In this document: in pieces, positions 5,770-60,705 of the stretch | How the letters are laid out: each line of letters opens with the position of its first letter | Numbering within the stretch: the first letter of the stretch is position 1 | Position numbers and translations under genes: made by a program | Source of the DNA: Sphagnum magellanicum | Lineage: Eukaryota; Streptophyta; Sphagnopsida; Sphagnales; Sphagnaceae | Assembly: GCA_021904315.1 (NCBI GenBank) | Contig: CM038915.1 | Span: forward strand, 13,206,001 to 13,270,000 | Direction: 5' to 3' | DNA length: 64,000 bases | The notes under the pieces: model-generated | Told to the model about the DNA's origin: nothing | What the model saw: only the letters and a program-made list of their open reading frames with translations | The model's database searches: none

Positions 5770-6625
5770 TACTTAAGCCTAATTCACCTAAGTAGGTTAG
5801 TATGTTGGTTTATTTATTTACCTACCTAGCTTAGATCTACTTACTTATACTAGGTAGATAGGTCTAAGCTAAATAAGTGGTTAAGTAAGCTTAGGCTAAG
5901 AAGTAGGTTAAGTTTTTAAATCCTATTTCATTTCAAGTTTAACTTTAAAGGTCAAGCTTATTTGATTGGTTCATCCCAATTGACATCTAATCTTTAATGT
6001 TCCTTGTGTATTTTCAATCTTCTAGTGCACTTACTTATATAGTTTACAAACTTGAAAGCAAAGATAAAAGATGTGGGATAAGTTTTTAGTTGCAACCTAG
6101 TCACATGTATTAACAACTACATACTAACAAACAACTATTAATTAACTAGCTAGGTTAGGTTAGGCTAGGTTAAGCTAGGTATCAAGGTCAAGTTAAGGTA
6201 AGTTAGGTTAAGTTAAACTAGGTACCTAGGTTACATTAAGGTAAGTTAGGTTAGGCTAGGTACCTATGTTAGGTTAATGTAAGTTATGTTAAGTTAGATA
6301 CAAGTAGGTTAGGTTAACATAAGTTAAGTTATGTTAGGTTAAAGTAAATTAGGTTAGTTTAAGCTAAATTAAGCTACCTTAGGTACTTAAGTTACATTAT
6401 GGTAGGTTAAATTAAATTAGGTTAGGTAATTATATTAAGTTCAAGGTTTAAATAAATTAGGCTAAGCTAGGGTAGATTAGGTTCAACTAACTACCTATGA
6501 TAGGATAGGTTAGGTTATGTTAAACTATGTACATAACTAATTTAAGTTAGGCTAGGTACTTAGGTTGGGTTAGGTTAGGTCAGACTAGGTACTTAGGTTG
6601 GGCTCAAGGTTGTTAAAACCAATGT
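5770..6625. repeat. TAGGT/TTAGG-type degenerate short-period array
   Basis: About 850 bases of loosely repeated AGGTTAGGTTA, AGGTACCTAGG and TAAGTTAGG units. The same texture returns at 10,424-10,610 inside the same element, at 36,220-36,370 in element B and at 39,210-39,740. Units are five to ten bases long and irregular. Confidence 0.75.
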
Positions 6626-8700: not shown

Positions 8701-10250
8701 AATCATTTTGCGACTAGATTTCGATCATTGGACATCGACTAAGGTGTGGACTAGTTGTGACCAAAATCCTAGCCATTGAAATTGTGATTGAAAATTAAAT
8801 CACCATTTTTTAACAATCAAGATTTTTTTTTAGTATTTCTTTTAGTTTTTTATTCACACTAATGACTTGATTTAAATTGCCAAACTATGAATGGGGTGTG
8901 GATAGGTCGACCAAAAAATCTTGGTCATTGAGATGGCAATTGAAATTAGGTTGCCATTTTTTAACATTCCAAATTTTTTTTCAATTTCTTTTTTCAGACA
9001 AGTTACTAGATTTAAGTCTCTTGATTATGGCCAAGGTGTGGATTAACTAACCAAAAAATCCTAGCCATTAAGAAGGCAACCAAATTAGGTTGCCATTTTT
9101 TATTGATTAAATTTTTCTTTCATTTATTTTGTTTTTTTTTCTTTCCCCACATTAAGGATTGGGTTTAGGTTGTTAGACTATGACTAGGATGTGGACAAGT
9201 TGACCAAAAAATCCTAGTCATTGAGATGGTGACCAAAATTTGGTTGCCAATTTTGAAAGGTCCAAAATTTTTTAGTTTTTTTTAATTTATTTTTTTCACA
9301 TTAGCAACTAGACTAAAATTGTTGGACTACAACTTAGGGTGCAGATTGATCGACAAAAAAATCATAGTTGTTTAGATGGTGATCGAAATTAAGATGCCAA
9401 TTTTTAATGCTTGAGATATTTTTTAGTATTTTTTTGGTTTTCTTTTTTAATTGGCAATCGGATTTAAATCATTAGACTTCAACTAGGGTGTGGACAAGTT
9501 GAGTGGAAAATCTTAGCTATTCAGTTGGTGATCAAAATATAGTCGCCAATTTTTAAAGGTTCAAAAGTTTTTTGGTTTTTTGCAATGACAATTAAATTAA
9601 GGTTGTTGGACTATAATTGGGGTGTGGATTAGTGGACCAAAAAATGTTGGTTGTTGAGATGGCAATTGAAACTAGGTTGCCATTTTTTAATGGTCTAGAG
9701 TTTTAAGAAAATAAAAAAAACATTTTTTGCATTATTGACGATTGTTGAACTTTGACTGGGGTGTGGACAAGTCAATCAAAAAATCCTAGCCATTGGAATG
9801 GGGATCGAAATTAGGTTGTCATTTTTTAATGGTTTAGATTTCTTTTTAGTTTGTTTCTTTTTTTCTGTAGTGGTGCTTAGATTTAGGTTCCAAGATTGGG
9901 ATTACAATGTAAACAGGTCAACCGAAAAATCATGGCCATTGACATGGTGATGAAAATCAAGTTGTAACTTTTTAATGGTTTAGATTTTTTTATCTGTTAA
10001 TTTTTTTTTCCTCACTTGTGATTGGATTTAGGTTGTTGAACTATAATTGGGATGTGGACATGTCAATCAAAAAATCTTGGCTATTGAAATGGCAATTGAA
10101 ATGAAGTTCCCATTTTTTAATCTTTAGTTTTTTTTTTTTTTTTTTTTTTTTCACATTGGTGACTAGGTTTAGGTTGTCAAACTACAATTGAAATTTGGAC
10201 TAGTTGACCACAAATCTTGGTCATTGAAATGGCAGGCCTAGATTTAAGTC
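8700..10250. repeat. Tandem array, ~145-bp unit, about 11 copies
   Basis: A recurring core, GGTGTGGACAAGTTGACC-(A)n-TCCTAGCCATTGAGATGG, then GATCGAAATTAGGTTGCCA and a T-rich spacer. Copies begin near 8,740, 8,889, 9,035, 9,187, 9,335, 9,488, 9,620, 9,757, 9,904, 10,048 and 10,187, so spacing is 132-153 bases. Copies are diverged by eye by perhaps 15-30 percent. A 24-base T run lies at 10,128-10,151. The unit size is like plant satellite monomers. Confidence 0.85.
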
Positions 10251-14486: not shown

Positions 14487-16439
14487 TTATGCTGCTGTGA
14501 ACTTATTTTCAATCCTCTTGAACAGGCCTTGTTTGCGAGGTTGACGTCCTGTTGCTGCTGCCGGAGCTCCTCCATTGGCAGAAGAAGCTGCAGCGGTAGC
14601 AGGTGGTGGTGCAGTACGAGCGGAGGTACCATTGTTGTTGTTGGTAACAGTGTCGATGCTACGTTGATCAGTTTCTGCATCCGCTGAGGAATCGGAGCTA
14701 GTGTCTCTGTGATGATGCCCAGCAGCTAGCAGATTATCCAGGTGTGGTCTGTGCTTTTGCTCCAGGTGTTGTAGGAGATTCATATCACCAGGGGCAGAAT
14801 ATCTGTTGTGAAGCTTCTCAATGTAGCTGCACATTCATCAAACAAAGAAAACGGATCCAAAAGAAGACGATAGATCTGATCAGCTGGAGGCGATGGCATT
14901 CATTTTTCCTTCTGCCAATATGCATGATCACAGCTAGCTACTATTGCCCAAAGAATTCCCCAGTTCTAGAATAGACACCAAGCTCATGAAGAGAACTTCC
15001 GAACTAGCTGAATATCAAGCGCGACAAGTTCAACAGCTGCAGATCTTCTAGACCTGCAGATCAGCCGTTGTAGATCTAGAATCCCGAAAGTGTTATCAAT
15101 TGGGTTCAACACTCTAGAGACTTAAGAATCTGCAAAAAAAATATGCATGAAGTTGCGAAAGATTTGCCACTGGGAAGAAATCCGAGGGAATTCAATCCAG
15201 AGTTAGCTGTGGAGAAATGCAGAGCTCTAGGGATGACTTACTTTCCAGTGTGTACTTCGATCTGGCGCTTCACGGGGACCTCGTGCACGATGGGTACATG
15301 CACAGACTCAAGCACATCCTCGGTGATGATCCTGGGAGTCTTCTCCACTCTCGGAACCTCCACATAGTCCACCACATCCACCATTTCGGTGATTTCCCTG
15401 GGTTCTTCTACGACTCTGCGCATAGCAGCAGCACACGGATGAATATCACCAAACTACTCATGCTTTGTCAGGAGGTTCTCTACTGCTCATGTACTTCAAG
15501 GAAGTGCAGAAGATCAATATTCTTAGAAGAGTTCTTAACTTCTCAGCCTGCTTCTTCATTCTCCTGATCACATTCTTTACTGCAATTCTGCAGTGTCCAT
15601 GAGGTGCCGGAAAATCAAAAAGCTGCTTCAGAAGATTGCAGAGTGGCTATGAGCGCGTGACCGACTGATGTATGATCTCGAGCTTTTTTTACCTGTGCAC
15701 AATTTCGATCCTTGTCTTAGGGACCTGCTTGATGATGGGCACCCTGTCAATGATCACAGTCTCCTCCATGATGACTTTGGTTCGGGGAACCGTCACCATC
15801 CTTTCCTCGTATGTGATCTCCTTCACGAACACCGTCTCCTCCACCGTCTTCATCTCTGGGATCTTCTGGATGACTTCAACTCGGGTCTCATATTCCTTGG
15901 GCTGCAATATTATGCAAAAGACATATATTTTTAGCACATCATGTGAGAATTCTGGCAAAGCTTGTATCTAGTCTTCGACGCTCTCGACGATCTCCCAGCT
16001 GCAGCTCACGAAAGTCAGTTCGGCTGGCGAAGAATTTGTTCAAGAGATTTACCAGAAAGCGAGAGTTGGGTGCATTCAGATTGGGAACATAAGGGTGTCC
16101 TCCTCCCGTCACCTCGGACCGGTTCGGCAAATTCCGCATCGCTGCCGGCTCCCCTGCGTGCACTGGTCCGCGTACAGCAGGCTCACCTTGATCTCTAGTG
16201 TTTCCGTCCGCGGCTTCCGTGAGTCGCTCAGAAGTACCGGAAGCAGCGGCAGCAGGAGTAGTTTCCCCAGTTGTTCCGCGACGATTGATGCCATTGTTTG
16301 CAGCACCGGCAACAACTGCGTGATCTGTACCACCACCACCACCCACTGCTCTAACTCCCTCGTTCATATTCTCATCGGCTGCAGGAGCTGGTGCTGCATC
16401 AGGCTGATCCGCGGCTATACTAGACTGATCACTACTCAT
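14487..16439 (-). CDS. Alveolin/articulin-like repeat protein, function unknown
   Basis: Four exons on the minus strand: 16,439-16,053; 15,901-15,693; 15,415-15,242; 14,826-14,487. All junctions keep frame (phases 0, 2, 2) and together encode about 369 residues. The first ATG in frame is at 16,439; the frame continues upstream only from a TTG. Residues 1-129 are Ala/Gly/Asn-rich and probably disordered. Residues about 131-256, which are exactly exons 2 and 3, form an unbroken Val/Ile/Pro core with alternating Glu and Lys/Arg: VEVIQKIPEMK, MVTVPRTKVIMEE, IIDRVPIIKQVP, YVEVPRVEKTP, VHVPIVHEVPVK. The C-terminal third is low complexity and ends in a basic helix, KQGLFKRIENKF. The core resembles the VPV repeats of alveolins (IMC proteins) and articulins, which build membrane-underlying filaments in protists; I know of no characterised land-plant member. 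The donor of exon 1 (CTG|GTAAAT) is the least certain junction; GTAAGT at exon 3 is strong. No function is claimed. Confidence 0.82.
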
Positions 16440-24899: not shown

Positions 24900-25935
24900 G
24901 GAGTTGCAAGTGGGTTACACTCACTAATGTGAACATGTGTGGACTTGTGAGTATTGCAAATGTGTTGTTGTAGAATAAAAGGGTACAAATTTGGAAATTG
25001 GTTGGAACCTGCATGTATACTGGTTGAGTACTTTGAGTTGTTATGGACTAATGAGGACTTTTAAATGTGCTATGTGGCTATTAAATAACACATATGGACT
25101 AATTAGAACTTGTGTCTTATGTGCGTATTAGTGATCACTTATGAACTAATGAGGATTTGTAATAGTCTTTTGTGCATTTGAGTGAGTGCCTATGGATTGG
25201 TGAGGACTTCAAATCATTTTATGTGCACATCAGTGATTACCATTGGACTAATCAAGACTTGTAATGAAAATTTGTGATAGTCTGATGTGCATAGTAGTGG
25301 ACACCTATGGATTATTGAGGACTTACAATAGTCTAATGTGCATATTACTGAACACCTATGGAGTTGTGAATACTTTAGAAAAGTTTAAATGGACATTAAT
25401 GATCACCATTGGACTGATGAAGACTTGTAATAGTTTGATGTGTATGTTAATGAGCACTTATGGAGTTGTGAGGACTTGGAAATGTACTAAATGTACATTA
25501 ATGATCACCATAGGATTGGTGAAGATTTGTAATAATTTGATGTGCATATCAATGAGCACCTATGGAGTTGTGAGGACTTGGAAATGTACGAAATATACAT
25601 TAGTAACTAAATGTACACTAAATGATAACCATTGGATTAATGAGGACTTGTAATAGTCTGATGTGCATTTGAATGGGCATTTATGGATTGCTGAAGACTT
25701 GGAATTTTTTTAAATGCACATTTGTGATCACCTTTGGATTAATGAAGGCTTGTAATTTAGTCTTATGTGCATATTAATGAACACCTATGGACTAGTGAGG
25801 ACTCAAGGCAATTTTTTATGTGAACATTAATCTACACTTATGGACTGGTGGAAACTTGCAAATGTGTTGTGTGATAGTATAATTAATGAACACATATGGA
25901 TTGATAATGAGGACCTACAACTATCTACTATGAGT
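24900..25935. repeat. Tandem ~51/102-bp repeat array
   Basis: Half-units containing (C/T)TATGGA(C/G)T..TGAGGACTT alternate in two types. The clearest 102-base full units start near 25,399 and 25,501. Looser units run from about 24,900 to 25,935, with an outlier at 24,419. Because 102 is a multiple of three, one frame (25,264-25,653) stays open for 129 codons with a 34-residue repeat (CNSLMCM.MSTYGVVRTWK). That frame is best explained by the repeat itself. Confidence 0.8.
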
Positions 25936-35705: not shown

Positions 35706-38379
35706 CACTAGAGAAATGCAACCACATTTAAAGTGGCCATGATAATTTAGATGGAACATTTAAGGAACATAATTGTGGCAACAATTTTGTGATTGGTCAT
35801 TCACAAGTATCATGCCATGGTAATCATTAATTTGAAAAAATGAAATTAAAACTAGATTGAACACCATCATAAACACATACATGCATAGTTTACATCTTTT
35901 TTAGAAACCAAAAAAATTGACAATGGCAGGGTTAAGAAAAGACACATAGACAGAGATAAGGTCCTACACAATTAAAATTTGAATGTGCACATGAAATAGG
36001 CTTTGGTTTATGTCATTAGAGATGTCTAACGTAACCTAACAATGGTTTTGCTTCTATCATCACATTGAAAAGAAATCTTACAACATATTTTTCACATTCA
36101 AAAATGTCTCTAGAAATTAAAAAAGGGAAATAATGACCTAGGGTTGGAAAGGGACATCTACAAAGAGGCAAAAAGACATAGATAGAAGGAACCTTACATC
36201 ACTAAAACCTAGAACCATCACTAAGTACCTTCCTACCTACATACCTACCTACCCATCTAGGATAAACACCTATCTAGATAGGACCTATTTACCTACCTAG
36301 GCCAAATACCTACTTAGGTCGTTAGGTAGGTAGAAAAGTAGGTAGGTAAGTTAGGGAAGTAGGTAATTAGGTGTAAGTACATGAATATTTATATCTTATT
36401 TTGGGTTAAGTCGGTTTTATTGACTCATCCCATATGCCCATTTTTTTCAATAAAAAAATGTAAGACAAAACATTTTGTTTATATACTTTTCAAGATGAGA
36501 ATGAAAGCCAAAACATATGGGATAAAAATTTTAGTTGTAAATCGTTTGTGACTAAACATTTTTAATTGCAAACTTGTAACTAAAAACTTTTATCCCATAT
36601 GTTTTGGTTTTCATTTTCATTTTGAAAAGTATATAATTAAGTAGGTAAGTGACAACTAACTAGCTAATTAATTAATTAATTTATTAACTGATTTATTAAC
36701 TAATTAACTAGTAAGATTATTAATTATTTAATGAATATAATATAGAAAAATAAATTAACAAACTTTCTAAATAATTAATGAACAATTAAACTAGAAACTA
36801 ACTAATTATTTATAGTAATAATCATCAATATCTTATGATTGTGAATTAATTATATTATTAGTTATTCTTAAATATTACATAATTTATTAGCTAAATAAAC
36901 AGTAATAATATTCAACTTTAAATGTATATTAACTATAATAATCTATCAACCATTTTAATTAACTAATAATTGGATAATATTGAAATAATCAGCTAATTAT
37001 TAATCACTCATAAATTATTATTTTGTAACCAAATAAATTAATATAATAACTGAACTATTTAATATTTAATAATTATTAACTATTAATTATAAATATTGAG
37101 GACTAGTTTTTTATATCTAATAATATAATTAAAACCTAGCCTAGGCTAACTATTTTATTTTTATTATTCATATTATTACATCACTGATTAAAGCTACTTA
37201 TGAACTATTAAAATAATATTTTATATTTTTAATAAATATATTTTTCCTTGAAAAATAATTTCTGCATTTGTATAATAATTTATTAGATTTCCATTTTAGC
37301 TAATACAATAATTACTATAAAATAATAAAATAGTAAAACTGAAAATAAAAATAATATATCAGTAATTGATTATAATCATTGAATAATTAATAATTAATAA
37401 ATATCAATTATAAATTTGAAATATAATAACTTAAAACTATATATTAATATTTCATAATAATTAAAATATTAATCTAATAATACTTCATAATTGATTACCT
37501 ATAATAATAATAATATAATTTGTAGCTAGCTTATGTTAGCTATTTTATTATTATGTCACTTGTTAGAGCTATTATGATTTATTATAATTAATTCTTCTTT
37601 TTTTAATAAATAAAAATTAATTCTTAATAAGTAGAATAGTCATTTGAAAATAATATAATAATGTATTTTTTAAAATAATTAATTCAATAATTATATAATA
37701 ATTTTTCCTATCATTCTATCATCATCATCATCATCATTATGATCATTATGTAATAAGATATTACTATTTAAAAATTTTAATCAAAGATAATATTGAAATT
37801 TAGTTTTTTATCACATGTAATTAATATAAATATATAATATTTATATTGATAAATCTCATTTTTAATCATTTTAAGAAGTATAATAAGATGGTTTGGATAA
37901 ATTTGTAATATGGGCATAATATATTTAGCAAATATCTTACATAAAAATTTAATATATTCAAAATACACTATCTAGTGTAACCATAATATCAAGGCCATTT
38001 ATGTTAATAATAATATTTGAATACACATATAATATGGTTGTTCATATAAATTCAAAATATACATTTATAAATCCTAATACACCCAACTATATTCCTTAGA
38101 ATTCACAAAATACACCTTTGTATACTCATAAGGTTGCAACTAAATTGGTCACATTTGTAACTAATGGGACATAAATTATTCTTTTTGGATGAAAATTAAA
38201 CTAATGTTGTTCACGTGGAAGGATGAACACCAAAATAGTTACAAACTAGTTGCATTATAGTTGCAAATATGACCAACACAAGAAATAGTTGCAAAAATGT
38301 CTAAATGTAGTTGTAAATAACTAACAGTTGCATGTAGTCACAAATAGATTGGTTACATTTTGGCCAATTCCTACTAGTG
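35706..38379 (+). mobile_element. CACTA-like non-autonomous element (element B)
   Basis: Left end CACTAGAGAAATGCAACC at 35,706; right end ...CCTACTAGTG finishing at 38,379. The right subterminal region has repeated AGTTGCAAA/AGTTGCATG units. Its last ~270 bases align with the right end of element A. Inside, a TAGGT block (36,220-36,370), a long hairpin and a very AT-rich tract (36,640-38,050) follow the same order as in A. The block GGGATAA.(A)TTTTTAGTTG lies about 800 bases from the left end here and about 780 in A. No transposase frame is present. The flanking triplets (GAG and CGT) do not match, so the boundaries are provisional. Confidence 0.5.
36480..36635. repeat. Long imperfect hairpin, ~70-bp arms
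   Basis: TATATACTTTTCAAGATGAG...CAAAACATATGGGATAAAA on the left is matched in reverse complement by the right arm ending TTTTGAAAAGTATATA. Only a few mismatches occur over about 70 bases, and the loop is about 16 bases. It lies in element B. Confidence 0.8.
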
Positions 38380-44960: not shown

Positions 44961-45052
44961 CCAAGACAACACTGCCTCTAGGATCCTAACAATTGATAGG
45001 ATTGTAATTGGAGCTGAGGATATTACAATCGGAAAGTTGTGATCGTGGAGTG

Positions 45053-48000
45053 ATGGGTGTTGGACATCATGTGCGTCTGCAAAGAGTTAGCTATGTTGTT
45101 GCTGCAATTGGTCTTGTGGTCATGGTTGCTGTTGTCATCTTCGTCGACTTGTTGGGCATGAGTGGACGTGCAGTGACGTCCGTGACAACAGTGCAGTATA
45201 ACTACAGCGATGCTCTCATGAGGAGCCTGCTCTACTTCGAGGGCCAAAGGTCTGGCAAGCTTCCTACTACTCAGAGAGTCACCTGGCGTGGAGATTCGGC
45301 TCTCACGGATGGCGAATCTGCAGGAGTATGTTCTTCTGGAGCTTCTACTTGGTTTCTTTTCTCCTCATCACGTATCCTCACTCTATTCTTCTTGACAATC
45401 AGTTCTACAACTAATTTTCATTCTAGATTTTGCATGAGCCAGGTGCAAGATTGATTTTAAGAACACATATCATGCATGATGCATCTAGAAACTTCAAAAA
45501 CTCTGGATCTGTGTAACGAGTTCAAGAAGAGGAATACAATACTTGTTGCATGCATGGAAAATGATGTCGTGTGTTCCTGTGGTGCAAAGTTTCAACGAGT
45601 GAGCTTAATTTTGCATCTTGTTAATTGCAGGTCAATTTAACGGGAGGCTATTATGATGCTGGCGATAATGTCAAGTTCGGATTTCCCATGGCATTTACCA
45701 TAACCATGCTTTCATGGTCAGTTATTGAATACAAGTCGCAGTTGCAATCTACTAACCAGCTCTCGTACGCTCTAAGTGCGATCCAGTGGGGCACTGATTA
45801 CTTCTTGAAAGCGCATGTTGCGCCCAACGTGTTCTTCGGTGAAGTCGGAGATGGAAATTCAGACCATGCCTGCTGGATGAGGCCAGAAGACATGACAACG
45901 CCTCGAGGTGCTTACCAGATTAATGCTAGCCACCCCGGCTCAGATCTTGCTGGTGAAACAGCTGCAGCCCTGGCAGCTGCATCTATGGTCTTCCAAACCA
46001 TCAATGCCAGCTACTCTGCCACACTTCTTACAAATGCACAACAGGTACAATATACTATAAGCAACACAACATTCTTTGAGCTAATCGGGTCTAGACTCTC
46101 TACTATAGAAGGCCTCATCAATATGCAATCATGGATTTCGCATTCATAATTTTGGTTCTATGTCATAAAAGCTTCTAGATAGTTGACATGAACAAACTAG
46201 CGTTGTTCAAATTCCAAGCTTGTTTATGGGACATGCATGATGCTCCTACATGCTGATGAGGGACATGTGTTGATGACCATCTTGGCAGCTTTTCAACTTT
46301 GCAAATACTTATCGAGGAAAGTACTCTGACAGCATCACAGTGGTTGACCCCTTCTATGATTCTTACAGTGGTTATGATGTAAGTACAAATGTGTGCCATG
46401 TTGTTTGATCAGCTTTTAGAAATCACAATTAGTGGGTGATGATTCTCAATCCACCATCTGATCTACCTTTCTTCTGTTGGTAGCCTCACACGCCAACTTG
46501 CACATAGTAATGAATTTGCACCCAAGTTCTCTTGGAATCCGCAAATCATCAATAAGCCGTCTTTTGTATCTCTTCTAGGACGAGTTGCTATGGGCAGCAA
46601 TATGGTTGTGGGATGCAACTGGGAATACGACTTACTTGAATTACTTCATCAACAATGCAGCATCATTGGGAGGAACTGGAACTGCTATGAATCAGTTCAG
46701 TTGGGATAACAAGTACGTCGGAGTTCAACTAAAAGCAACAAAGGTATGGTCTTTTTGTGTGCGTGATCTTGATACTCTCGACTCTTCATGCAATTGCAAA
46801 TTTCTGGAGATCTTCCTAACGTCATGACTCATAATGAGCTACTAGTTGCCCCATGAGTTTAATTTTTAGCGGATTTTAATGCTTAAACTTGGAGAAATAA
46901 GAGGTTGACACAAAATGTTGCTAGCTTCACAGTTGTTGTTCGATGGAACAGCCACGGCCTACACTTCAACTCTGCAGGCCTACCAAGCCAAAGCCGAGTA
47001 CTTCCTTTGTGCTGCTCTACAGAAGAATAACGGCCCAAATATCCCACTCACCCCTGGTGGGTACATAACATATGTCCTTCGTAGTTTTTGTCTAAACTGA
47101 AGTATCGTAACTTCGTGAAGATTTCTGTTGCTTGCATTGGCAAGCTCACTAGGTTCATTCGTGATTCGGTTTGTAGTTTCAGATTTCTAGAATTTGGACA
47201 TAACGTGATGCTCATGATTTTGTTAATCGGTGTTGTTGATGTGTGCAAGGGGGTTTGTTGGCGGTAGCAAACTCGGGCAACATGCAATCTGTAGCTACTG
47301 CCGCCTTTGTTTTGACTGTTGCTTATGATTACTACAACAATGCTGGAAAAACACTCTCTCATTGCACATCTTCTATCCAGAATTCACAATTGTTGGCGGC
47401 TGCCACTTCACAGGTACAGTATTTTTCATTTCTTTTGGAGATGAACTTTTTTCTTGTTGTGTAGAAGTACTCAGTCGTTGATGATCGGCCTTTCCAAATG
47501 TAAAGCACATACAAATAATCTAATGAGGTTAATTTTTTCATGGATGTGTGCTTGAAGGTCAACTACATACTTGGAAAGAATCCTAGAAATATCAGCTACT
47601 TGGTTGGGTTCGGGAGCAGCTTCCCACAGCAGGTGCATCACCGAGGTGCTTCCATTCCATCCATTAAAGTCCACCCACAATTGGTGAGCTGCAGTGGCGG
47701 GTTCACCACATACTACAGCAGTCCGAATCCGAATCCCAATGTGCACAATGGTGCTTTAGTTGCAGGCCCAGATCAGAATGACAATTTCCAAGATATTAGA
47801 AGCAACTATTCAATGACAGAACCATCTACTTACAACACTGCCCCCTTGGTCGGTGTGTTAGCCCGCCTTGCAGCTGCAGCGGGCTCTAACTCTGCTGAAG
47901 GTGCACCCATCATCACCCTCGCTATTTACAATGTTTTAAAGAAGGCTACTTCATTCAAAGTTCAGAGAACCGAACTGTATCAATATGTGTTGCTAAGTCC

Positions 48001-48985
48001 AGTTGCTGTAGATTCGAAAGCAATTGCTCTGGATCTTCGACATAGGCTTCCAAATCTACAGCAATTGGGTCCGAACTTCGGCAGCTGGTCGGCACCATCA
48101 CAATGTTTGCAAAAAAATAGCTCAATTAGTGATTTTGTTAACAAACCCAATGTTCGAAAATTTTCAAATCAGTGCATATCCTCATGCAAATCCTACTGGG
48201 CTTCAAATAATGCCAATGATCTTTCTCTAGGTCTTCCTCTTGAATTCACCAAATTGATTGTTGTTAAATTCTTCCATATGTAAACAAATGATCTGACCTT
48301 ATCTAGTGCCCGTATCTACAGACTGCAAGGGTGCTTGTTTAATTGGCACTACCCATTGTAGCCCAAAAAATCAGCGAGCTTTCAATGCGAGTAAATACCA
48401 AGAAGCATTTGATGAACCCTAAAATTACATTCCATCTTGCATCCAACTTTTAGTTCCTAATCAATCTTAGTTCTTCAAACGCACCTTTGCCTATATTGCA
48501 TGATGATCAGCTACCATAGTACTCATTCAAACCTTTTATGGGGTTCCCCGTTTGTGGTGGATGCTATAGGTGCTATTATAACACGCGCAGGTGTTGGTGC
48601 AGCTAGTGCTCCTGTTATTACTACTAAAGTCGCGACTCCTATCGAGATAACACAATCACTTGCAGATCAATGGGAGCTGAATGGAAAAATCTACGACAAA
48701 TATATCGTCACTATCAGCAACAAATCTACAATGACATTAACAAGTGTAAAGCTCGTTGTGCACAACCTAGGTGCCACCATTACAACAAGCAATACTTCTG
48801 CTACTACGTCTATTCAGGGTCTAGCCAAAACGTCACCGAATGGAAACATCTACATGCTGCCTCATTGGATCACGAGCTTCAAGCCCGACCAGACCATCAC
48901 CTTCACATATGTCCATCATCCCCAGTACGGCGCCGCGAAATTTTTCCTGCTTAGTTATGGAACAAGTAATGCTTATAACGAGTAA
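45053..48985 (+). CDS. Class C GH9 endo-1,4-beta-glucanase with CBM49
   Basis: Hydrolyses internal beta-1,4 bonds of cellulose or related wall glucans. Eight exons: 45,053-45,325; 45,631-46,044; 46,289-46,378; 46,579-46,743; 46,933-47,056; 47,250-47,413; 47,558-47,900; 48,591-48,985. All phases fit and the product is 655 aa; the upstream frame starts only with TTG. Residues about 13-37 are one long hydrophobic segment (signal peptide or signal anchor). GH9 landmarks: [15 protein letters not shown] (Asp100, Asp103), [14 protein letters not shown] (437-440), and the catalytic block [17 protein letters not shown] (Asp482, Asp485, Glu498), all intact. Residues about 531-650 are CBM49, with Trp552 and Trp617 retained; the middle binding Trp known from tomato Cel9C1 appears replaced (SIQGL at 598-602). 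Length and layout match class C enzymes (about 620 aa). AATAAA-like ATAATAAAC follows near 49,000. Confidence 0.93.
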
Positions 48986-50589: not shown

Positions 50590-50662
50590 GGGGGAGTAGC
50601 TCAAATGGTAGAGCGCCCGTTTCGCATACGGGAGGTAACGGGATCGATGCCCGTCTTCTCCA
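50590..50662 (+). tRNA. tRNA-Ala (anticodon CGC)
   Basis: A 73-base cloverleaf. The acceptor stem GGGGGAG pairs with CTTCTCC and keeps the G3:U70 wobble that marks alanine tRNAs, with discriminator A. The anticodon arm is CCCGT-TTCGCAT-ACGGG (perfect five-pair stem, anticodon CGC). The T arm is ACGGG-ATCGATG-CCCGT (perfect stem). A-box TAGCTCAAATGG and B-box GGATCGATGCC are present. There is no intron, and CCA is not encoded. Confidence 0.95.
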
Positions 50663-52216: not shown

Positions 52217-53197
52217 ATGCAAGAGCTGCAAATACTTCCCTCTTCGTGCTCTTCCTTCTCTACGAAAGCTTTTGTTGTCATTCCTGCCTTTCTTGTTCGT
52301 CGTCAATGTCATTTCCCGTCATCACTAGGCATATTATCCAGCACAGTTACGCACCTGGGAAGCCGGCACAGACTGCAAAGCTTATGGTCTGGTGTCCATG
52401 GATGTATGGATCATCATCATCGTCATCTTCCCGAAGGAGGAAACAACCTTGCGACTTTTTATTGCTGCTGCAGTTCCTTTAGGTTTCCGTTTCTTTCATG
52501 CTACAGACTTCGAAAAAATAGCAAGTGCAAGAGTTGCTTCTCCTGTTCCTGGAGTAGAATCGTTGCTCCAGTTTGTGCTGAGAATTTGCACTGGCATGAT
52601 GGATGTGTGGAGCAAAAGGTCCGTCAAGCCTTGCTCAAGCAAAAGGGGTGCATAATTTGGATCACAGGGCTTAGTGGCTCAGGAAAATCAACTCTAGCTT
52701 GCACCCTTGATCACCGTCTAGCTTCCATGGGCCATCTGAGTTATGTCCTTGATGGTGACAACATCCGGCATGGACTGAGCAGTGACTTACGGTTCTCAGC
52801 AGCAGACAGAGAGGAGAATATTCGCAGAGTTGGAGAAGTCGCTAAGCTTTTTGCAGATGCTGGTGTCATCACATTGGTAAGCTTCATATCACCATATGCC
52901 AAGGACAGGGAGTTTGTCCGAAATATTGTGCCAAGTGGTGAGTTCATTGAGGTTTTCATGAAGGTTCCATTGGAGGTGTGTGAGGCTAGGGATTGTAAAG
53001 GTCTTTACAAATCAGCCAGGGCAGGTGTATTGAAGGGCTTTACTGGAGTCGATGATCCTTATGAAGAGCCTCAAAATCCTGAAATTGTTCTAGAGGCTAC
53101 AGATGCCACAGGAGAGTTTATCTCCGCGCAGGTGATGGCCAGTACCTTGATCACTTACATTAGGGACAGGGGCTTTCTTGAAGGACCATGTTCTTGA
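52217..53197 (+). CDS. Adenylylsulfate (APS) kinase, organelle-targeted
   Basis: Phosphorylates APS with ATP to give PAPS, the sulfate donor for sulfation of secondary metabolites and peptides. One exon, 326 aa. The first ATG in frame is 52,217; the frame upstream begins only at a GTG. Residues 1 to about 115 are rich in Ser, Arg, His and Phe with few acids, as expected for a plastid transit peptide. The kinase domain runs from about 123: WHDGC linker, P-loop GLSGSGKST (151-159), DGDNIRHGL (179-187), REENIRRVGEVAKLFADAG, ISPYAKDRE, then the lid signature KGLYKSARAGVLKGFTGVDDPYE. All catalytic motifs are intact. Oddities: no introns, although flowering-plant APS kinase genes have several; and the position of the second redox-switch cysteine in Arabidopsis APK1 (before ILDGDN) is Ser175 here, while the N-terminal Cys (Cys130) is shifted by one. 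Confidence 0.92.
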   Translation: MQELQILPSSCSSFSTKAFVVIPAFLVRRQCHFPSSLGILSSTVTHLGSRHRLQSLWSGVHGCMDHHHRHLPEGGNNLATFYCCCSSFRFPFLSCYRLRKNSKCKSCFSCSWSRIVAPVCAENLHWHDGCVEQKVRQALLKQKGCIIWITGLSGSGKSTLACTLDHRLASMGHLSYVLDGDNIRHGLSSDLRFSAADREENIRRVGEVAKLFADAGVITLVSFISPYAKDREFVRNIVPSGEFIEVFMKVPLEVCEARDCKGLYKSARAGVLKGFTGVDDPYEEPQNPEIVLEATDATGEFISAQVMASTLITYIRDRGFLEGPCS

Positions 53198-60257: not shown

Positions 60258-60705
60258 GCTACGTATTTGCTTCTTTTTTTATTTTATTTTTTGGATTTGT
60301 TTTTTCGGATTTTTCTCCCCTTCTCTTAAATTAACAAAAATGAAGAAACAAAATAAAAAATAAAAAATAAAAAATCGGCAGAAAAATCTAAGGCTACATG
60401 TTTGCTTCTTTTTTTATCTTTTTTTTTTTGGATTTGTTTTTTCGGATTTTTCTCCCCTTCTCTTAAATTAACAAAAATGAAGAAACAAAATAAAAAATAA
60501 AAAATAAGAAATCGGCAGAAAAATCTAAGGCTACGTGTTTGCTTCTTTTTTTATCTTTTTTTTTTTGGATTTGTTTTTTCGGATTTTCTCCCCTTCTCTT
60601 AAATTAACAAAAATGAAGAAACAAAATAAAAAATAAAAAATAAGAAATCGGCAGAAAAATCTAAGGCTACGTGTTTGCTTCTTTTTTTATCTTTTTTTTT
60701 TGGGA
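60258..60705. repeat. 137-bp tandem repeat, 3.3 copies
   Basis: CTACGT.TTTGCTTC begins at 60,258, 60,394, 60,531 and 60,668. Each unit continues GGATTTGTTTTTTCGGATTT, CTCCCCTTCTCTTAAATTAA, then an A-rich tract ending ATCGGCAGAAAAATCTAAGG. Copies are nearly identical, so amplification is recent. Confidence 0.9.

Follow-up and report, generated by a model that had tools for sequence, protein, structure and literature searches.

An epiplastin-like core with a two-residue proline/valine register in a predicted protein of Sphagnum magellanicum

Epiplastins, a class comprising alveolins, articulins, plateins and epiplasmins, have been reported in euglenids, glaucophytes, cryptophytes and alveolates, according to PMC6212826. 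There, acid-base dyads are considered important, their occurrence at short intervals being the ABD criterion; construction of an epiplast by the organism is one of three epiplastin criteria, and more than three VPV modules set off the articulin subclass. The same paper reports look-alikes without assigned function in basidiomycetes, insects and Caulobacter. Palmitoylation has been described for a Plasmodium alveolin (PMC5388192), and in a plant review (PMC11932217) the word 'articulin' refers to AP2, seemingly an endocytic adaptor in our own interpretation. Among the matches listed in our literature search, whose coverage lies mostly outside subscription journals, no paper joined alveolins or epiplastins with land plants. 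We know of no epiplast in the group to which the present host belongs.

We analysed 64,000 nucleotides of Sphagnum magellanicum DNA, the whole of which is called the window below. The original prediction of four in-frame exons encoding about 369 amino acids was confirmed at the level of the gene model: the exons join in frame on the minus strand to give 1110 nt including the stop codon (369 aa), the three introns are all GT-AG, and phases are compatible at every junction (Table 1). The plant setting that it assumed also stood, since the window contains parts of a GH9 endoglucanase with a CBM49 domain after them, a combination that we take to be a mark of plant class C enzymes, and an APS kinase domain whose nearest relative among PDB chains is a chloroplastic plant enzyme. 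We read the locus as an apparently intact protein-coding gene of a land plant. Table 1 also lists a tRNA gene, tandem arrays, short repeats and an A+T-rich stretch found elsewhere in the window.

Table 1. Positions in the window of the exons and introns of the predicted gene and of other features
Feature	Position	Strand	Signals or description	Product
Exon 1	16053..16439	-	start codon at 16439; GT donor at 16052; ends in phase 0	129-aa head arm, G/A/N/P-rich
Intron 1	15902..16052	-	151 nt, GTAAAT...TTGCAG	
Exon 2	15693..15901	-	AG acceptor ending at 15902; GT donor at 15692	residues 130-198 and part of 199; first half of V/I/P/E-rich core
Intron 2	15416..15692	-	277 nt, GTAAAA...GCGCAG; interrupts the core	
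Exon 3	15242..15415	-	AG acceptor ending at 15416; GT donor at 15241	second half of core, through residue 256 and part of 257; two-residue register shared with exon 2
Intron 3	14827..15241	-	415 nt, GTAAGT...GTGCAG	
Exon 4	14487..14826	-	stop codon 14489-14487	112-aa tail arm; C-terminus basic
GH9 endoglucanase pieces, then CBM49 domain	45008-48982			
APS kinase domain	52643-53092		single exon; best PDB match 3uie	chloroplastic adenylyl-sulfate kinase 1 (3uie)
tRNA-Ala	50590-50662		anticodon CGC	
Tandem array	60258-60705		period 137, 97% matches	
Tandem array	9173-10234		period about 146-150	
Tandem array	25265-25704		period 51/102	
Short repeats	6151-6461		rich in GGTTAAG	
A+T-rich stretch	36001-38000		strongly A+T-rich, GC 0.20	

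Trained on 484 codons from the neighbouring enzyme genes, a codon score ranked the claimed frame first of six for exons 1, 2 and 3 and placed introns and flanks below the claimed exon frames; for exon 4 the score was about tied (0.42 in the claimed frame versus 0.45 in a frame with two stops). This tie, antisense frames that are also open across exons 1 and 2, and the derivation of the model from sequence alone are what speaks for a mis-joined or dead gene, in which some exons would be foreign or the gene silent. We consider this very unlikely in view of the three compatible GT-AG junctions, the 369 codons free of stops and the top codon scores of exons 1-3, as well as the lack of any Pfam match (E up to 1) to the three antisense ORFs tested and a proline/valine register, described below, that is continuous over the exon 2-3 joint. 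Third positions of core codons have a GC content of 0.71, whereas the two arms have 0.40 and 0.38 and the enzyme exons nearby 0.47; the high value in the core may reflect codon selection there or a separate history of that part.

The core comprises residues 130-257, with limits taken from exon boundaries and not chosen by composition. It coincides exactly with exons 2 and 3, as had been proposed, although its length is 128 residues when the intron-split codons are counted, not 125. It contains 21.1% V, 11.7% I, 17.2% E, 7.0% K, 7.8% R, 3.1% D, 7.8% P, 9.4% T, 0.8% G and 0% A, with a net charge of -7. The likeness to epiplastins in composition was upheld: 13 of 14 measures lie within 1 SD of the published profile of the ABD domains of 219 epiplastins (means and SDs from Goodenough and others, PMC6212826), alanine falling exactly at the limit and some of the measures being sums of others and hence not independent. 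The outlier is threonine, 3.2 SD away from the 3 +/- 2% given there. P, I, V, D, E and K together make up 68.0% of the core, compared with the 62-68% published for Plasmodium alveolin domains. The predicted low-complexity arms are also present, G+A reaching 31.8% in the head and 22.3% in the tail but only 0.8% in the core, and GAST content (45.0% in the head, 38.4% in the tail, 10.9% in the core) follows the epiplastin type of head and tail. When the six frames of the whole window were filtered for open stretches of 57 aa with V+I of at least 28%, EKDR of at least 28% and G+A of at most 3%, all 34 overlapping stretches that passed began within this gene, and no such stretch arose when the window was replaced by order-1 Markov versions of itself (0/10). 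The whole protein is free of cysteine, tryptophan and any stretch resembling a membrane span; lacking cysteine, it could not be palmitoylated in the manner of the Plasmodium alveolin. The 13 measures, the six-residue sum and this last set of absences all count in favour of a scaffold of epiplastin type.

We describe here a two-residue proline/valine register that runs through the whole core. All 10 prolines fall on one parity (10:0, at spacings of 14, 24, 16, 6, 14, 16, 6, 14 and 6), and 21 of the 27 valines (21:6) on the opposite one, the split for V+I being 29:13. Among 20000 shuffles of the residues, 29 gave such a register for P and 94 for V+I, values that are somewhat flattered, as the pattern emerged from scanning several residue sets and periods. 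The strongest period was 2.00 both for V+I (2/200 shuffles) and for P (0/200), after correction for all periods tried, though not for the seven residue sets. Arginine is split 2:8, while isoleucine (7:8) and acidic residues (13:13) take no part. Exons 2 and 3 keep one common register, and because both carry it identically their joint is supported. The parities and the period are counted in favour of a scaffold.

Other expected features fared less well. The 'VEV/VPV-type' repeat of the original prediction was overstated, as the core has just two VEV and one VPV, which falls short of the articulin threshold. The alternation of Glu with Lys/Arg that it described does not exceed chance (23 of 44 sign changes, reached by 2192/5000 shuffles). 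Acid-base dyads are not enriched either: the core has six, against a shuffle mean of 7.7, and 153/200 shuffles reach that number, a lack that counts against a scaffold. As for a repeat as such, support was weak, the similarity between exons 2 and 3 being reached by 1.4 to 4.7% of shuffles; we did not accept an exon duplication as established, this likeness being too slight relative to shuffles. A 12-residue V/I period gave a signal that 437/500 core shuffles reach, but the test says little, because bacterial articulin-like domains were equally blank (30/30); such tandem periodicity was judged with HHrepID in PMC4303705, and here with a shuffle-based period test.

These bacterial domains served as a yardstick. 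A synthetic articulin query led to 54 loci in prokaryotes belonging to several phyla, Caulobacter included, and 30 of the 54 hold a 128-aa stretch of like composition, which we used as the comparison set. Because a single query makes the 30 domains alike by construction, the figures that follow characterise the design and should not be taken as independent: all prolines lie on one register in 19/30, V/I mostly on the other in 29/30, and the period is 2 in 25/30 and 12 (for V/I) in none. The proline/valine register and a V/I/E/K/R-rich make-up are thus common to both sides, and the shared register and period were counted for the scaffold. In contrast, the bacterial repeats are enriched in dyads (28/30) and alternate in charge beyond chance (29/30), and the plant core does neither. 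The bacterial domains, found with one query, score at least 133 among themselves and at most 121 with the plant core. This best score of 121 was reached by 3/150 residue shuffles and 13/150 shuffles that keep the register, and the mean score of 94.3 by 1/150 and 8/150, respectively; the reversed core scores 113. Some likeness beyond composition is hinted at, most of it explained by the register. We rejected homology with bacterial articulins as undemonstrated, since 121 is not clearly above the register-keeping shuffles (13/150) or the reversed core.

A search at E up to 10 gave no PF12314 (IMCp) match to either the core or the full-length protein, and membership in the alveolin family, which the original prediction had raised, is disfavoured by this check and further weakened, as is articulin membership, by the missing dyad enrichment and charge alternation. 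In control runs, the profile matched a synthetic array of 12-mers (82.8 bits) and missed a synthetic array of articulin-like type; with the cut-off at 21.1 bits, the bacterial proteins L005 (a piece, 24.1) and L010 (25.4) pass and L007 (20.5) falls just short. As PF12314 failed to match one of the two synthetic controls yet accepted two of the three bacterial proteins, one of them a ZapA fusion, it lacks full sensitivity for articulin-like arrays and is not specific for alveolins. That fusion, L010, comes from an uncultured alphaproteobacterium, and its ZapA cell-division domain runs on into the V-P-E-K repeat that passes the cut-off. It follows from these bacterial matches that a PF12314 match by itself is no proof of an alveolin, and the register offers a simple sequence test for such domains that is independent of this profile. 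No relative of the core was confirmed among 22 pattern stretches in viral contigs or 23 in genome contigs, and plasmids and phages yielded no tblastn match (E up to 10), under a BLAST low-complexity filter that may hide the query. The best E values were 0.11 in PDB, 0.26 in NCBIfam and, for the tail arm and far below the cut-off, 0.026 in Pfam, and PHROGs gave no match; of the collections searched, just Pfam and PDB are expected to include land-plant sequence.

A true alveolin, articulin or epiplastin, inherited from a flagellated ancestor or acquired by transfer and kept, in plants with motile sperm, for the cortex or the multilayered structure, would account for the composition, the medial core and the G/A/S/T-rich arms, and epiplastins do occur in glaucophytes, which share the primary plastid (PMC6212826). 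We nonetheless consider it unlikely, given the missing PF12314 match, the single VPV, the lack of dyad enrichment and charge alternation, and a bacterial alignment that does not clearly stand above register-keeping shuffles or the reversed core; furthermore, the IMCp searches in PMC6212826 gave none in green algae. Convergence would be easy, because such repeats are found in unrelated bacterial proteins, one of them fused to ZapA.

We modelled exons 2 and 3 separately with AlphaFold, one sequence per run. Exon 2 alone was predicted with strands at 17-28, 34-45, 50-53 and 65-67 and without helix, which counts for a scaffold; the model is weak (pLDDT 52.3, the remaining four models 30.6 to 34.3), which counts against it, as does exon 3, with zero strands and one 4-residue helix (pLDDT 77.3, pTM 0.16). 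The strand and coil without helix published for ABD domains in PMC6212826 came from PSIPRED, whereas ours come from low-confidence AlphaFold models. Hydrophobic moments of the core showed no excess of strand or helix amphipathicity (462 and 622 of 1000 shuffles), which also counts against a scaffold, and a membrane-binding helix is unsupported because the moments are at shuffle level. A significant amphipathic helix at the C-terminus was likewise rejected, 1861/5000 shuffles of that segment being as good.

The strandless exon 3 and the absent amphipathic excess are what would be expected of a convergent low-complexity spacer that does not assemble and has no cytoskeletal role, PEVK-like or similar to a bacterial stalk, its register being that of an extended chain with prolines, placed under tension or acting as a ruler. 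PEVK-type elastic spacers of titin are rich in P, E, V and K, like the plant core; we know of no plant titin. That many proteins from diverse bacterial phyla (the 54 loci) carry V-P-E-K repeats of like register, in various settings including the ZapA fusion, also fits such a spacer, but the near-exact match to epiplastin composition and the all-beta, though weak, model of exon 2 do not. We regard it as possible, if somewhat doubtful.

On balance, the protein is best read as an epiplastin-like and probably convergent scaffold or spacer, cytosolic and beta-rich. The convergent repeat that the original prediction had offered as its alternative is the reading that fits best. We suggest that the product would be soluble, with a mass of about 40 kDa, and made up of a disordered head, the 128-residue core and a disordered tail. 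The core would be extended, with prolines interrupting long beta strands, and its register would place the prolines on one side of the chain and most valines on the other throughout; it might associate side by side with its own copies or with partners, and the arms could set spacing or attachment. The design would have been reached by convergence and not by descent from alveolins or articulins. That the extended beta-rich core acts as such a scaffold, arisen by convergence, is a real possibility, to which we give somewhat less than an even chance. A more specific version, a plant-made scaffold of epiplastin type with a strict register but without dyads, serving a sperm cortical or flagellar-root layer or another membrane-bound structure, is improbable, and a role in sperm or flagella is a guess; if true, it would be a third plant way to brace a membrane, beside actin/spectrin and microtubules.

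In PMC6212826, epiplastins have a medial domain of like amino-acid profile, with hardly any G or A, between a head and a tail rich in G/A/S/T, as in the plant protein. They differ in that the plant core is without dyad enrichment, is higher in threonine, has one VPV and does not match PF12314; unlike epiplastins, the plant protein has no cysteine, and its core is 128 aa long versus about 200 aa. The nearest published category is that of the epiplastin-like proteins found in basidiomycetes, insects and Caulobacter, described in the same paper: they have the right composition in lineages without a known epiplast, as here, although their VPV modules are numerous and the plant core has one. To these, a plant look-alike would add a lineage where the design can be tested genetically.
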